DNA of 39,890 nucleotides, taken from NCBI GenBank assembly GCA_030602585.1, contig JAUVZJ010000013.1:1-39890 (forward strand), given 5' to 3'. The stretch's first letter is position 1. Every line of letters starts with the position of its first letter. Position numbers and translations under genes: made by a program. This document shows positions 7,499 to 36,986 of this stretch, one piece after another. The notes under the pieces are model-generated. The model was not told where the DNA came from, searched no databases, and was given only the letters and a program-made list of their open reading frames with translations. This stretch comes from Candidatus Methanophagales archaeon (GTDB lineage: Archaea > Halobacteriota > Syntropharchaeia > Alkanophagales > Methanospirareceae).

Positions 7499-7571
7499 TG
7501 CAGGATACATGATACAAGATTAGGGATGCGCCATTCATCTTGCACCTTCAATTATTTTCTCGTGAAAATTA

Positions 7572-7663
7572 GGGAGCTCTGCCCCATGCCCCCTTTCTTT
7601 GGTAAAGCTTTCTTTTCACATTGCTAAAGCAATGGAACGGCGAAGCCGTTCAAAAGAAAGGTT
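7572..7663. repeat. nested palindromic intergenic element between convergent genes
   Basis: Outer 9-bp arms CTTTCTTTT (7608-7616)/AAAAGAAAG (7652-7660) enclose ATTGC-TAAA-GCAAT (7620-7633) and GAACGGC-GAA-GCCGTTC (7635-7651). Flanked by GGGAGCTCTGCCCCATGCCCCC (7572-7593), which resembles the 32840/36820 repeat. Confidence 0.6.
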
Positions 7664-15228: not shown

Positions 15229-15270
15229 TAAGCCCTTTCGGGGCTTGCGGGGACGCGGCCGGAGCCCGCG
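15229..15270 (+). repeat. dispersed palindromic element (divergent copy)
   Basis: TAAGCCCTTTCGGGGCTTGCGGGGACGCGGCCGGAGCCCGCG, same two-stem plan as the copies at 32840-32890 and 36820-36868. Confidence 0.6.
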
Positions 15271-29108: not shown

Positions 29109-32012
29109 ATGGATGTATTAAAAGAACTTAATTTTCAACAATCGGATTTTTCACTATCAGTGACCAATGTTTTTGAATATGTTTATGATTTAGGTTCTCT
29201 GTCTTTCATCAAGATGGAGAGTAATAGAGAGTTGGACCAACAGTTTTATGAGGTACATAGAGATATCTGGAATGAAAATAAATCAGAGATTTTCATTACA
29301 ATAATTGATGAAAGTAAAATAATTATTTGTGATTCAAAAACTCGTCCAGAGCGAGATAATCCAATAGAGAGAGTTAAAATAAAATCGTTTGATTACGGTG
29401 AAGATACGGTAGAAGCGCGGAAATATAGAGAGCTTCTAAAAAAGGAAAACATAGATACTGGGGTTTTCTGGGAAGAGATATCAAGATTCATAAGAGAAAG
29501 AAAAAAGAGAAAAAAAAGATCCCCAATTGATGAAGATCTGTTAGATAATTTGATAAAAACAAGAGGAAGATTGCAAGAGATTATTGAAAATGATGCAAAG
29601 GACATCTCACAGAAATTAATTGATAGATGTCTTTTTATTAGATTTATCGAAGACCGTTTGGAATTTGATAAGTTAAAACAGGTTCTCAAAAAAGGAAAGG
29701 TTGACCAATTATTAAGTTTATTTGAATACTACAATAAGGCTTTAAATGGGGACCTGTTCGACGAAGACGATATTCATATTACCGATTCCGGCGTATTGAA
29801 CGAGCTTGATAAGGTCTTTGGAGAATATTATGCGTATTCTCATGGACAACAGACAATTACACCCTATAAATTTGATAAAATTCCAATATTATTGATTAGC
29901 CATATCTACCAAAAATTCCTTAAAAAAGATAAAAAGGACAGAGAAGGTATTGTATTCACTCCAGAAAACATCGTTGATTTCATGGTCAGTACTGTTTTTG
30001 AATCTCAAGATATAGTTAATAAGGCTCAAAAAGGTAAAATAAAAATTCTGGATAGTGCATGCGGTTCAGGCATTTTCTTGGTCAAATCTTTCGAAAGACT
30101 ACTAAATGAAAGACAACAATCCTTGAAAAAGCAATTAGACATCCATGAAAAGACCAATTTACTTAAAGAGTCTATTTACGGGATAGATTTAGATCAAGAT
30201 GCTTTAAGAGTGGCAGCATTTAGTTTATATCTGAAGATATTTGAAGGGATAGATTCAAAAACCATAAAAGAGGAAGTCTTTGATCGTCATGAACAGGGAC
30301 TTGAGCATTTTATGTTCCCGGGATTGAAAGAAAAAAACTTAAAAAATGCTAATGCCCTGTTTGACGAGGTATTTGATGATGAATTTGATCTAATTTTGGG
30401 AAATCCACCATGGGGCTACAAATTTAACGATGACGAAAAACAAAAAATAGATGATAAATGGGGAAAGAGCATTTCACAATATCAAAGCTCACAATGCTTT
30501 TTACATCAAACCAAAGTTTGGATGAAGAAGGATACTATAGTTGGTATGGTGGTGAATATATCAAATTTCACGAATACTCGAGCCAGAGCATTTAGAGCTG
30601 AATTACTCAAAACATATTCTATTTTGAATTTTACAACTTTAACAAAAGTCAAGGATATTACTTTTGAAGAGAGTGACGAACCTGCATGTATCTTGATTTT
30701 TACTTTGGAAAAACCAGGTTCTGAGATTGAATTTCTAATTCCTGAGTTAACTCAATTTTCAAAATTAACTGGGACAATAACAATCAGGAATGACGACAAG
30801 TTCAAGTTCCTGCAAGAAAAGTTAAAGGATGATGTTTGTTGGCACATTAGTTTATTAGGACTGAATAGATATTTGGATTTAATCAAAAAGATTGGGAATA
30901 AAAAGGATATTTTTGAAGATGAGCTACGAGATAACCTTAACCATTGTTATAGCCTTGATTATTATTCCATGATAGAAGAGGGAGCGCGTCTTTATTCGAC
31001 AGAGAAACATGGAACTATAGAGGGGGCAAAAAGAAAATATGAATCTAATGAGAAACTTGGCCCAGATTACTACCAAATGGTTCGTTCAACAAAGGCAGTT
31101 CAGCCGTTTTTATTTAAGAAGAATAATTTTAAATATCTAAAATATGGCCCCCATCTGGAAAGGGCAAGGGATATAGAATTGTTTGAAGGAGATAAATTAG
31201 TCATAACTCGAAGTTGGCCATTAAAAGCAGTATATGTTAATGATACTATAATTTTTAATAGTTCGTTTAATATTCTTAAGTTAAAGTCAGGGGTGAATAA
31301 AAATTATTTATCGATTTTTGAAGCTATATTGAACTCTAAACTAGGTTTTTTTTATTTAGACTCATTATATAGACAGCGACCTGAAGGAAATTTCTCTAAA
31401 GTAAATAAAGGTTCACTTGAGAGATTCCCTATACCCAATCTTGGAGGTAAAGGAAATATAATCGAAGATATAGTCAAAACTATTGAAAAAATAAGAAATG
31501 GAAAGAATATCAAAGAAAATCGATTAATGATAGATGAATTGGTTTTTGATCTATATGATCTTGATTATTATGAAAAAATGCAGATATTAGATTATTATAA
31601 GCTTCAAAATAGACGTAGAAAAAGTTTAGTAACAGGAGAAGATTTTGATGAGTATATAGATGAGTTCCAAGACTCTTTTAGTTTTTTGATCAAAGAAGGG
31701 TACGCACTAAATGCAGAATGTTATACATCTGATTTTTTGGGTGCTTTAATTAAATTTAGTTTTTCTAAAGAAAAGAAGACACCCCAACATAATCTCTCTA
31801 AGAGTTTGAAAAAACTTATTGATATTACGCAGAGAGATAAACTAATGGAAAGTGATAGAAAATCGATGCTTGAGGAAAAGAAAGTGAAAATTTATGATGA
31901 AAACAGCCTTATTATTTATAAAAGCAATCATTTAAGGGATTGGACAAGAACTGAAGCAATAAATGATGTTAAAGAGGAAATTGGGGTGATTTATAACCAT
32001 CTTCCTGAGTGA
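29109..32012 (+). CDS. N6-adenine DNA methyltransferase, type II/IIG-like (Eco57I-type) R-M protein
   Basis: 967 aa; SAM motif ILDSACGSGIFLVKSF, catalytic DLILGNPPWGYKF, C-terminal target-recognition-like region. Confidence 0.9.
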   Translation: MDVLKELNFQQSDFSLSVTNVFEYVYDLGSLSFIKMESNRELDQQFYEVHRDIWNENKSEIFITIIDESKIIICDSKTRPERDNPIERVKIKSFDYGEDTVEARKYRELLKKENIDTGVFWEEISRFIRERKKRKKRSPIDEDLLDNLIKTRGRLQEIIENDAKDISQKLIDRCLFIRFIEDRLEFDKLKQVLKKGKVDQLLSLFEYYNKALNGDLFDEDDIHITDSGVLNELDKVFGEYYAYSHGQQTITPYKFDKIPILLISHIYQKFLKKDKKDREGIVFTPENIVDFMVSTVFESQDIVNKAQKGKIKILDSACGSGIFLVKSFERLLNERQQSLKKQLDIHEKTNLLKESIYGIDLDQDALRVAAFSLYLKIFEGIDSKTIKEEVFDRHEQGLEHFMFPGLKEKNLKNANALFDEVFDDEFDLILGNPPWGYKFNDDEKQKIDDKWGKSISQYQSSQCFLHQTKVWMKKDTIVGMVVNISNFTNTRARAFRAELLKTYSILNFTTLTKVKDITFEESDEPACILIFTLEKPGSEIEFLIPELTQFSKLTGTITIRNDDKFKFLQEKLKDDVCWHISLLGLNRYLDLIKKIGNKKDIFEDELRDNLNHCYSLDYYSMIEEGARLYSTEKHGTIEGAKRKYESNEKLGPDYYQMVRSTKAVQPFLFKKNNFKYLKYGPHLERARDIELFEGDKLVITRSWPLKAVYVNDTIIFNSSFNILKLKSGVNKNYLSIFEAILNSKLGFFYLDSLYRQRPEGNFSKVNKGSLERFPIPNLGGKGNIIEDIVKTIEKIRNGKNIKENRLMIDELVFDLYDLDYYEKMQILDYYKLQNRRRKSLVTGEDFDEYIDEFQDSFSFLIKEGYALNAECYTSDFLGALIKFSFSKEKKTPQHNLSKSLKKLIDITQRDKLMESDRKSMLEEKKVKIYDENSLIIYKSNHLRDWTRTEAINDVKEEIGVIYNHLPE

Positions 32013-32761: not shown

Positions 32762-32836
32762 TATACTATAAGATATGGCTGCGCTGAGGCATAGCCTCCA
32801 TAAATCTTCTCTTTATCTGCTCTGCTCCCAATTTTA
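32762..32836. repeat. right copy of the direct repeat flanking the R-M island (overlaps comDE-like 3' end)
   Basis: See the left copy at 28581-28656; block spacing is conserved (40 vs 39 nt). Confidence 0.8.
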
Positions 32837-33959
32837 TGTTCCCCACTGTGGGGCTCTGCCCCACGACCCCGCAAGCCCTGTAAGGGCTTAAGGCATTGCC
32901 CGGTTTAACCATGACATGTAGAAACCTCGGACCTGCTTCCTCGTATAACCGCTCTAATGCGGACCGCAGCTCCTCTTCCGTATGAACCTTCATCGTATTC
33001 TCCACGCCGGCACTTATCGCCATCAGTTCCATATCACCGTAAGAAGGTGCAGGTTGGTCGCCGGTGCTTCCCCACGTGCCGTTATCGAGGCAAACAATAG
33101 AAAGATTTTCCGGCTTCTTCTCCGCTATTAGCGGCAAAATGTTGCTCATCAGCAGACTGCCATCGCCATCGAGCACCATCGTTTCTCTTTTTGTCTTCAA
33201 TGCGACGCCCAATCCTATGGAGGAAGCTTGACCCAGGCTTCCGAGCATGTAAAAATTCAAATTGCGGTCTTTAGCGGCATAAAGTTCCTTGCTTGGCACG
33301 CCTATGTTCGAGATAACGGCTTCTTCGTCTAAATATTCTGCTATTATCCGTATTGCATCGTATCTTCCCATTTCTGGCTCCTTAACCTCTCTTTCATACT
33401 TCAACGTCCATTTTCGAGACCTTTTTTGATGAGGAGCCGTGTTTTCTTTAATTACATCGTCGCTTCTTTCCCACGTTCTCGGCGAGATGAGTGCAATATG
33501 CGGTCTTTCATTGGTGAAGGCATCCTGAATGACTTCTTCTACTAACCTTATCTGTGAGGAGTCCTCTATTATCGTGTATTTCAGTCCCAGAGCATCTAAA
33601 ACTTGGGGCAACGCTTTCCCAAGTGGAACCTGCGCCTCTATACTCTCCTTGTAAACACCACGCCAGCTCGCTATTACAGGCAAAGGCAGTTTATAAGTGA
33701 CAGAGAGCGACATAATGGCATTTATAGAATTACATAAACCCGTGCTCTGGATAATCATCACGGGCTTACCGCCTGCGAGGTAAACGCCTGCGGAGAGACC
33801 GACGCCATTTTCCTCCCTGTTCAAACCCACATGACAGAATGCTCGCTCTCTCGCAACAAACCGCAACAATACACTTATTTTCTCACATGGTAGCGTGGAC
33901 ACAACGTCTATTTTGTTCCTCTTCAATATTTCTATTACTTCTCGCTCGATTTCATACAT
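32766..33959 (-). CDS. comDE: thiamine-diphosphate enzyme, probable fused sulfopyruvate decarboxylase (coenzyme M biosynthesis)
   Basis: 397 aa; N-terminal Pyr domain (VSTLPCEKISVLL...NREENGVGLSAGVYLAGGKPVMIIQSTGLCNSINAI) and C-terminal PP domain (MVLDGDGSLLMSNILPLIAEKKPENLSIVCLDNGTWGSTGDQPAP), as in ComD-ComE fusions. Confidence 0.82.
   Translation of the reverse strand: MYEIEREVIEILKRNKIDVVSTLPCEKISVLLRFVARERAFCHVGLNREENGVGLSAGVYLAGGKPVMIIQSTGLCNSINAIMSLSVTYKLPLPVIASWRGVYKESIEAQVPLGKALPQVLDALGLKYTIIEDSSQIRLVEEVIQDAFTNERPHIALISPRTWERSDDVIKENTAPHQKRSRKWTLKYEREVKEPEMGRYDAIRIIAEYLDEEAVISNIGVPSKELYAAKDRNLNFYMLGSLGQASSIGLGVALKTKRETMVLDGDGSLLMSNILPLIAEKKPENLSIVCLDNGTWGSTGDQPAPSYGDMELMAISAGVENTMKVHTEEELRSALERLYEEAGPRFLHVMVKPGNALSPYRACGVVGQSPTVGNIKLGAEQIKRRFMEAMPQRSHIL
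32840..32890 (-). repeat. dispersed palindromic element located in frame within the comDE-like gene
   Basis: Minus strand TTAAGCCCTTACAGGGCTTGCGGGGTCGTGGGGCAGAGCCCCACAGTGGGG closely matches the intergenic copy at 36820-36868 and encodes LSPYRACGVVGQSPTVG. Confidence 0.8.
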
Positions 33960-36777: not shown

Positions 36778-36819
36778 AACACTTTTTCTTTTTACAAAAC
36801 ACTTTCTTTTAGAAAAAGA

Positions 36820-36868
36820 TAAGCCCCTACTGGGCTTGCGGGATCGTGGGGCAGAGCCCCAACACTGT
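36820..36868 (+). repeat. dispersed palindromic element, intergenic copy
   Basis: TAAGCCCCTACTGGGCTTGCGGGATCGTGGGGCAGAGCCCCAACACTGTG, near-identical over about 42 nt to the copy inside comDE. Confidence 0.8.
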
Positions 36869-36884
36869 GCTAAGAAAATAATCT

Positions 36885-36917
36885 TTTGGTAAAGCTTTTC
36901 TTTCTAAGAAAAGGTTT
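36885..36917. repeat. TTTGGTAAAGCTTTTC...GAAAAGGTTT palindromic repeat
   Basis: tttggtaaagcttttctttctaagaaaaggttt resembles the 7598-7663 element. Confidence 0.55.
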
Positions 36918-36986
36918 GTGCTAAAAGAAAAAATTTTTGGAGAAAGAATATAATAAACTTGAGGAAGCATTAATTAAACTACGGAG

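Follow-up and report, generated by a model that had tools for sequence, protein, structure and literature searches.

A 42-nt palindromic element dispersed among ANME-1 archaea and carried in frame by comDE and other conserved genes

The comDE locus and its inserted element

The window analysed here, that is, the whole stretch of 39,890 nt, belongs to an assembly (G000) of 2.05 Mb in 89 contigs, 92.7% complete, whose host was identified as an ANME-1 archaeon (Methanophagales) because the closest named relatives of its ComDE protein are Methanophagales bins. The gene of this protein, comDE (32766–33959, minus strand), is an ORF of 397 aa for a sulfopyruvate decarboxylase alpha-beta fusion of coenzyme M biosynthesis. 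In NCBIfam, the ORF matched TIGR03845 (alpha) with 198.6 bits, above the cut-off, and TIGR03846 (beta) with 211 bits, slightly below it, scores that together support the label of a ComDE-like coenzyme M gene; the Pfam N and C domains of TPP enzymes were also matched. Adjoining comDE there is a 967-aa ORF (29109–32012, plus strand) that resembles a type II restriction-modification enzyme (NPPWGY motif), and then a 204-aa ORF.

Within comDE lies, in frame, a 42-nt element (32848–32889, minus strand; consensus AAGCCCTTACAGGGCTTGCGGGGTCGTGGGGCAGAGCCCCAC) that is read as (L)SPYRACGVVGQSP(T), and whose limits rest on its identity with the consensus and on the empty comDE genes of relatives. The alignment of copies with such empty genes resolved the layout AAGCCCTTACAGGGCTT-GCGGGGTC-GTGGGGCAGAGCCCCAC, where two 17-nt hairpins, each with a 7-bp stem and a 3-nt loop, are separated by 8 nt. 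On the minus strand, hairpin 1 (AAGCCCT-TAC-AGGGCTT) occupies 32873–32889, the linker GCGGGGTC 32865–32872 and hairpin 2 (GTGGGGC-AGA-GCCCCAC) 32848–32864, with a T preceding the element at 32890 and an A following it at 32847. Both hairpins are predicted by folding, as RNA and as DNA (z about −2.4 in each case), and their stem pairs are retained in 28–31 of 31 distinct 42-nt variants, with a compensatory change from G-C to A-T at the closing pair of hairpin 2 in 4 of the 31. The comDE copy is identical to the family consensus, a sequence shared by 55 of 117 unique copies from several genera. No known structured RNA was recognised in it by Rfam 15, where the best score, 13.5 bits, fell short of the gathering score of 40.

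The window contains further copies of the element. A second one, intergenic and embedded in an AT-rich repeat, was located at 36821–36862 (plus strand) by genome match and motif scan, a third and diverged one (AAGCCCTTTCGGGGCTTGCGGGGACGCGGCCGGAGCCCGCG) directly follows an AT-rich stretch at 15230–15270 (plus strand; right end approximate), and an intergenic fragment made only of hairpin 2 (ATGGGGCAGAGCTCCCTA) is found at 7570–7587 (minus strand). With up to 3 mismatches allowed, the 18-nt H1 motif occurs three times in the window, compared to 0.01 expected by chance. As for the protein, the overall fold predicted for ComDE by AlphaFold is plausible (mean pLDDT 76, pTM 0.80), and the insert is modelled as a low-confidence loop (residues 351–369, pLDDT <50) from the last strand to the last helix.

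Empty sites and insertion point

Comparison of 30 related ComDE genes, including the one of the window, revealed that the empty genes of relatives are shorter by exactly 42 nt and read VKPGN(A/T)(E/D)VENIKL across the site. The full insert was found only in two genomes of genus g1 (the window's own and another of the same genus), whereas 9 nt of it are missing in a genome of the sister genus g14 (G050), hairpin 2 alone is left in two more distant g12 genomes, the insert is apparently decayed in two g13 genomes, and nearly all the remaining aligned relatives lack it. The identical site is filled in the public bin CR_Bin_179 (L104; 93% protein identity), and Hel0.bin107 (L105) carries a shortened insert.

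The same net difference of 42 nt was obtained for PheA, LeuRS, DUF1015 and MoaA. For a second set of genic copies, empty sites were sought by searching with the joined flanks, and gap-free 42-nt empty sites, with flank identities of up to 94%, were recovered for TiaS, acylphosphatase, PolD DP2, a ChlD-like gene, RadB, ArgRS, WecB, NFACT, ABCE1 and ArgC. No target duplication was found at these empty sites, apart from any that a single shared base might mask. In this regard, the base before the element is T in 91–92% of copies and the base after it is A in 84–95%, and the undivided T^A is seen in the empty sites of DUF1015, LeuRS, TiaS, acylphosphatase, ChlD-like, RadB and WecB. Where a filled site has A in place of T (ABCE1, the second site of TiaS and DP2), the empty sites likewise have A, which indicates that the preceding base is derived from the host; in ArgC, NFACT and ArgRS, on the other hand, T^A flanks the filled site and does not occur in relatives, a base change that may have either preceded or accompanied the insertion. 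Altogether, the element has inserted and dispersed across genomes with a net gain of 42 nt, mostly between T and A.

An earlier note, made from sequence alone, had placed a palindromic segment in frame on the minus strand of a comDE-like ORF, which held in view of the sequence and the profile matches. Its size of 51 nt, or 17 codons, did not hold, since ComDE genes without the insert are exactly 42 nt (14 codons) shorter, and the trailing TVGN that was counted as part of the element belongs to the host protein, as the sequence of empty ComDE indicates. The near-identical intergenic copy reported at 36820 was confirmed as the one at 36821–36862, to which the third copy and the fragment were added, and the expectation of an insert limited to this lineage also held, with related ComDE genes mostly empty and the full insert elsewhere only in the same-genus genome.

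Reading frames of the genic copies

When flanked by T and A, the element is open in four of its six frames (KPLQGLRGRGAEPH, SPYRACGVVGQSPT, CGALPHDPASPVRA and WGSAPRPRKPCKGL), and the remaining two contain TAA. The use of these frames was followed in 102 unique copies selected irrespective of reading frame, 44 of which are carried by ORFs no shorter than 200 aa; removal of the element keeps 42 of the 44 ORFs at that length. The four open frames were used by 19, 9, 10 and 4 of these copies, with 2 more in the TAA-bearing sense frame, whose use is confined to copies preceded by A and not by T. Two non-spanning copies, whose removal opens a long ORF, are both probably cases of gene edges, so that a broken gene is conceivable for at most 2 of the 102. 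Stop frames account for at most 2 of 46 copies, in comparison with the one third expected under equal use of the six frames (P about 2e-6), a value that is only approximate because it assumes equal frames and independent copies, yet some copies share a site. Removal of the element lengthens an ORF at L036 and L038, which are apparent gene ends or upstream starts, and at L254, located 17 nt from a contig end.

Length is likewise more uniform inside genes, with 42 nt in 53 of 56 genic versus 38 of 50 non-genic copies (Fisher P 0.01), the three genic exceptions being those of HD (39 nt with respect to its empty site), RtcA (tandem-like) and L121. Moreover, genic copies decay in threes, as observed for ComDE (−9 nt), HD (−9 nt) and MoaA, where 24 nt have gone and 18 nt are left, and 54 nt are missing from the LeuRS of a same-genus genome. 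Frames, stops and decay are strong grounds for inferring that genic copies are translated as a 14-residue peptide, for which there is no protein evidence.

Host genes

The host genes, identified by Pfam and NCBIfam, include in the window's own genome ComDE, prephenate dehydratase (PheA), LeuRS, a DUF1015 protein, NAD(P)H-hydrate epimerase/dehydratase, MetRS, MoaA, an HD phosphohydrolase, RtcA and a PIN protein. In relatives, the element was found in AlaRS, ArgRS, GyrA, PolD DP2, GuaA, ABCE1, TiaS, ArgC, methylguanine methyltransferase, WecB, acylphosphatase, RadB, NFACT and diphthamide synthase. The 42-mer of MetRS is itself nested in a second, AT-rich palindrome, and relatives are 78 nt (26 codons) shorter at this position.

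LeuRS has two insertion sites. The window's genome is full at site 1 (L014 near 2711) and shows an apparent hairpin-2 fragment (LHGRGAEPHNF) at site 2, where a full copy is present in G023 (L077). Some inserts adjoin catalytic motifs (L089, L091, L178 and L119), namely PCHRV in methylguanine methyltransferase, VGYR in acylphosphatase and GVQFHPEV in GMP synthase.

Copy number and distribution

The genome of the window gave 47 BLAST matches to the segment, and register alignment of the fetched stretches, from which copy counts were taken, resolved 37 near-full copies (about 40 copies) in both orientations. About a quarter of the near-full copies (9 of 37) fall within ORFs no shorter than 250 aa. 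Within the ANME-1 family, matches (E ≤ 0.001) were detected in 40 of 51 genomes, and several genomes that are more than 90% complete gave no match. Nor did the order's other family, represented by two genomes, yield any, and elsewhere in the class a single genome had one match. No exact match to the 32-nt core was found in viral contigs, which argues against a virus as the carrier.

In a sample of 197 genomes of the phylum, the only match from outside the class, a single copy, came from G062, a 1.1-Mb genome in one contig. This copy (L241; G062:C1:580546-580599) is in frame in what we take to be, from reading of the sequence, a gene for dTDP-4-dehydrorhamnose reductase, and it likely reflects a gene that moved together with its insert, probably from an ANME-1 donor. 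The host gene adjoins an apparent second sugar-nucleotide gene.

Copies at shared sites and proposed mechanism

The reading that we favour, with a probability of roughly 0.86, is that of a non-autonomous and very short mobile palindrome of ANME-1 archaea that would be translated as a tolerated peptide, translation being inferred. Under this proposal, movement may depend on a hairpin-recognising activity provided in trans, for which the single-stranded hairpins would be the recognition signal; this is the least certain step, as the enzyme is unidentified and neither a transposition intermediate nor a mobilising enzyme was found. Genic copies, once transcribed and translated, would appear in the host proteins as tolerated loops of 14 residues, with expression and effects on the enzymes still untested, and selection would have removed insertions that fell in stop frames, shifted the frame or broke essential folds. 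The length of 14 codons and the four open frames out of six would make many intragenic insertions survivable.

Copies that occupy the same site in different genera are in tension with simple inheritance. They are identical at 39–42 of 42 positions, whereas most flanks are only 65–89% identical (68% for WecB, 76.5% for PheA and 83% for ArgC), and congeners of genomes with shared-site copies can be empty at that site. Common descent of the shared sites was discarded as very unlikely under neutrality, given elements identical at 42 of 42 positions with flanks of 68–77% in WecB and PheA; near-identical elements between diverged flanks do not fit neutral vertical descent alone. It is possible that this identity arises from repeated targeting, allele transfer, gene conversion or homogenisation, or selection on the element. 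A bolder reading, which remains no more than a possibility, combines an architecture suited to genes (a fixed length of 14 codons and four open frames out of six) with repeated landing at the same positions of conserved enzymes across ANME-1 genera. The site might then be chosen by an unidentified mechanism, such as homing-like targeting or retargeting through transferred alleles.

Alternative explanations

A different view of the shared sites is that of a functional structured element (a DNA- or RNA-binding site, an mRNA stabiliser, a terminator or a REP/BIME-like unit) selected on its sequence, spread and domesticated. The 55 of 117 unique copies that match the consensus in several genera, the near-identity of same-site copies between diverged flanks and the compensatory change in stem pairs all speak in its favour. 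Against it, unrelated genes read the element in four frames and in either orientation, copies are patchy within genera with clean empty sites, several genomes more than 90% complete have no match, and partly deleted copies persist, so that we consider this explanation unlikely. The proposal that the insert is not translated at all, being either an archaeal bulge-helix-bulge intron or a segment skipped by the ribosome like the byps of Magnusiomyces mitochondria, finds support in the presence of short hairpin inserts in essential genes and in the precedent of byps in coding genes (PMC8211752). Such an insert would need to keep neither the frame nor freedom from stops, yet stop frames are avoided and decay proceeds in threes. 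In addition, only T and A recur at the flanks, leaving no shared exon-side helix and no repeated take-off or landing codons evident, and this alternative is regarded as very unlikely.

An origin among REP elements, with a Y1 tyrosine transposase (RAYT or IS200/IS605-type) as the mobiliser, is suggested by the short hairpin-based repeat, by some diverged copies that read GTAG before hairpin 2 and by the four Y1_Tnp matches of the window's genome. However, the fetched regions of 2.5–3.3 kb around the four Y1 loci contain no copy of the element, the copy-rich genomes G002 (93% complete), G017 (98%) and G018 have no Y1_Tnp match, G028 and G034, with nine and seven Y1_Tnp matches, have only one or two copies, and neither end of the consensus bears a GTAG or CGTC tag. 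This origin is improbable in our opinion, and a Y1/IS200-type mobiliser was rejected for lack of copies in the fetched regions around the genome's own Y1 loci and of co-occurrence with copy number across the 51 genomes. Finally, chance similarity, a native loop of ComDE or an assembly error could only be supported by the fragmented host assembly, probably a metagenome bin. These possibilities are all but ruled out by the identical site filled in CR_Bin_179 and shortened in Hel0.bin107, by dozens of copies across the genome together with relatives that lack the insert exactly, and by the in-frame copy carried outside the class by single-contig G062.

Comparison with known systems

In-frame palindromic inserts are already known in Rickettsia and some other bacteria, according to the reviews cited here. 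Rickettsia palindromic elements (RPEs) are about 150 bp long and form ten families in obligate intracellular bacteria, many of which sit in frame in unrelated metabolic genes; nearly half of the R. conorii RPEs of the first report fall within ORFs (reviewed in PMC10969869 and PMC3733652). The ANME-1 element is similarly dispersed and palindromic, occurs both between and inside genes, and has in-frame genic copies in unrelated genes where it is apparently tolerated. It differs in its 42 nt, its two consecutive short hairpins and its archaeal host, as well as in a T^A insertion resolved from empty sites. The analogy covers behaviour and not homology, no sequence relation being known, although RPE sequences were not compared directly.

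Intragenic GTAG/CGTC REPs, the stem-loop repeats that decorate bacterial proteins such as tRNA synthetases and the products of DNA repair genes, hit homologous genes at about one site in one case (PMC3733652). The ANME-1 element is a short stem-loop repeat of similar size, but it ends in AAGCCC and CCCCAC, has GTAG only inside some variants and, unlike GTAG-type REPs, has no linked or co-occurring Y1/RAYT gene that we could find; a text search of PMC3733652 gave no methanogen or archaeal host. The failed criteria of size, host and tags indicate that the element resembles RPEs and intragenic REPs without being a member of either. With MITEs it shares a small size, dispersal and a non-autonomous nature, whereas it has no terminal inverted repeats (its AAGCCC and CCCCAC ends cannot pair together) and no target duplication was found. 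Byps are also short hairpin inserts of coding genes (PMC8211752), but ribosomes skip them, and the constraints on frame and stops point by inference to translation of the ANME-1 element.

The earlier note had invoked a mobile palindrome that invaded comDE and was tolerated as a peptide, an idea that is supported here, with translation, tolerance and the mechanism of movement remaining inferred. Neither of the two conditions that it had set for refuting the model was fulfilled, with related ComDE genes mostly empty and dozens of copies in the genome, and its Rickettsia precedent is valid for behaviour and not for any demonstrated homology. It had missed the exact size, the insertion point and the scale of the phenomenon, which extends to many essential genes and most of the ANME-1 family. 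No archaeal report of such inserts was found in the open-access literature searched, and priority remains unproven since the original RPE papers lie outside it.

The conserved genes hit in these uncultured methane-oxidising archaea number more than 20 and include those of four tRNA synthetases, of gyrase and of the replicative polymerase. The filled and empty pairs are a natural experiment on selfish DNA that adds peptides to proteins, from which target, exact size and frame rules can be directly measured. In annotation, extra loops of this kind in ANME-1 enzymes are to be taken as insertions and not as adaptations, and the activity of enzymes with inserts beside catalytic motifs would be a strict test of tolerance.

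Nested copies and associated repeats

Register alignment also showed that some copies of the window's genome are nested or tandem-like, and L040 and L043 resemble complete nested copies. Tandem-like copies of the form H1-H1′-H2 (L033 and L039) could have arisen when one copy inserted into another and the two hairpins 2 then recombined, a history that is only inferred. A recent change of this kind is seen at the rtcA site, where a congener has one element (L170) and the window's genome has the H1-H1′-H2 form (L039), with 8 codons more.

The 42-mer may also keep company with other palindromes, and its position between the arms of AT-rich repeats raises the possibility that these are favoured targets or co-travellers. 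Another AT-rich palindromic repeat, also dispersed (TTTCTTTGGTAAAGCTTTCTT...AAAGAAAGGTTTTTC and related forms), frequently has the 42-mer at its centre, as in L020 (2015–2058 plus flanks), L018, L021, L247, L252 and the window itself (36780–36920), and this repeat is itself in frame in MetRS, as a 78-nt composite in comparison with the shorter relatives. At least two more families of AT-rich repeats hold the 42-mer between their arms, one with AAATCCCAAATCCCAATACATACC (L015, L016, L028 and L036) and another with AACCACAAGATTACACA / TTTTCACGAGA (L032, L038 and L040).
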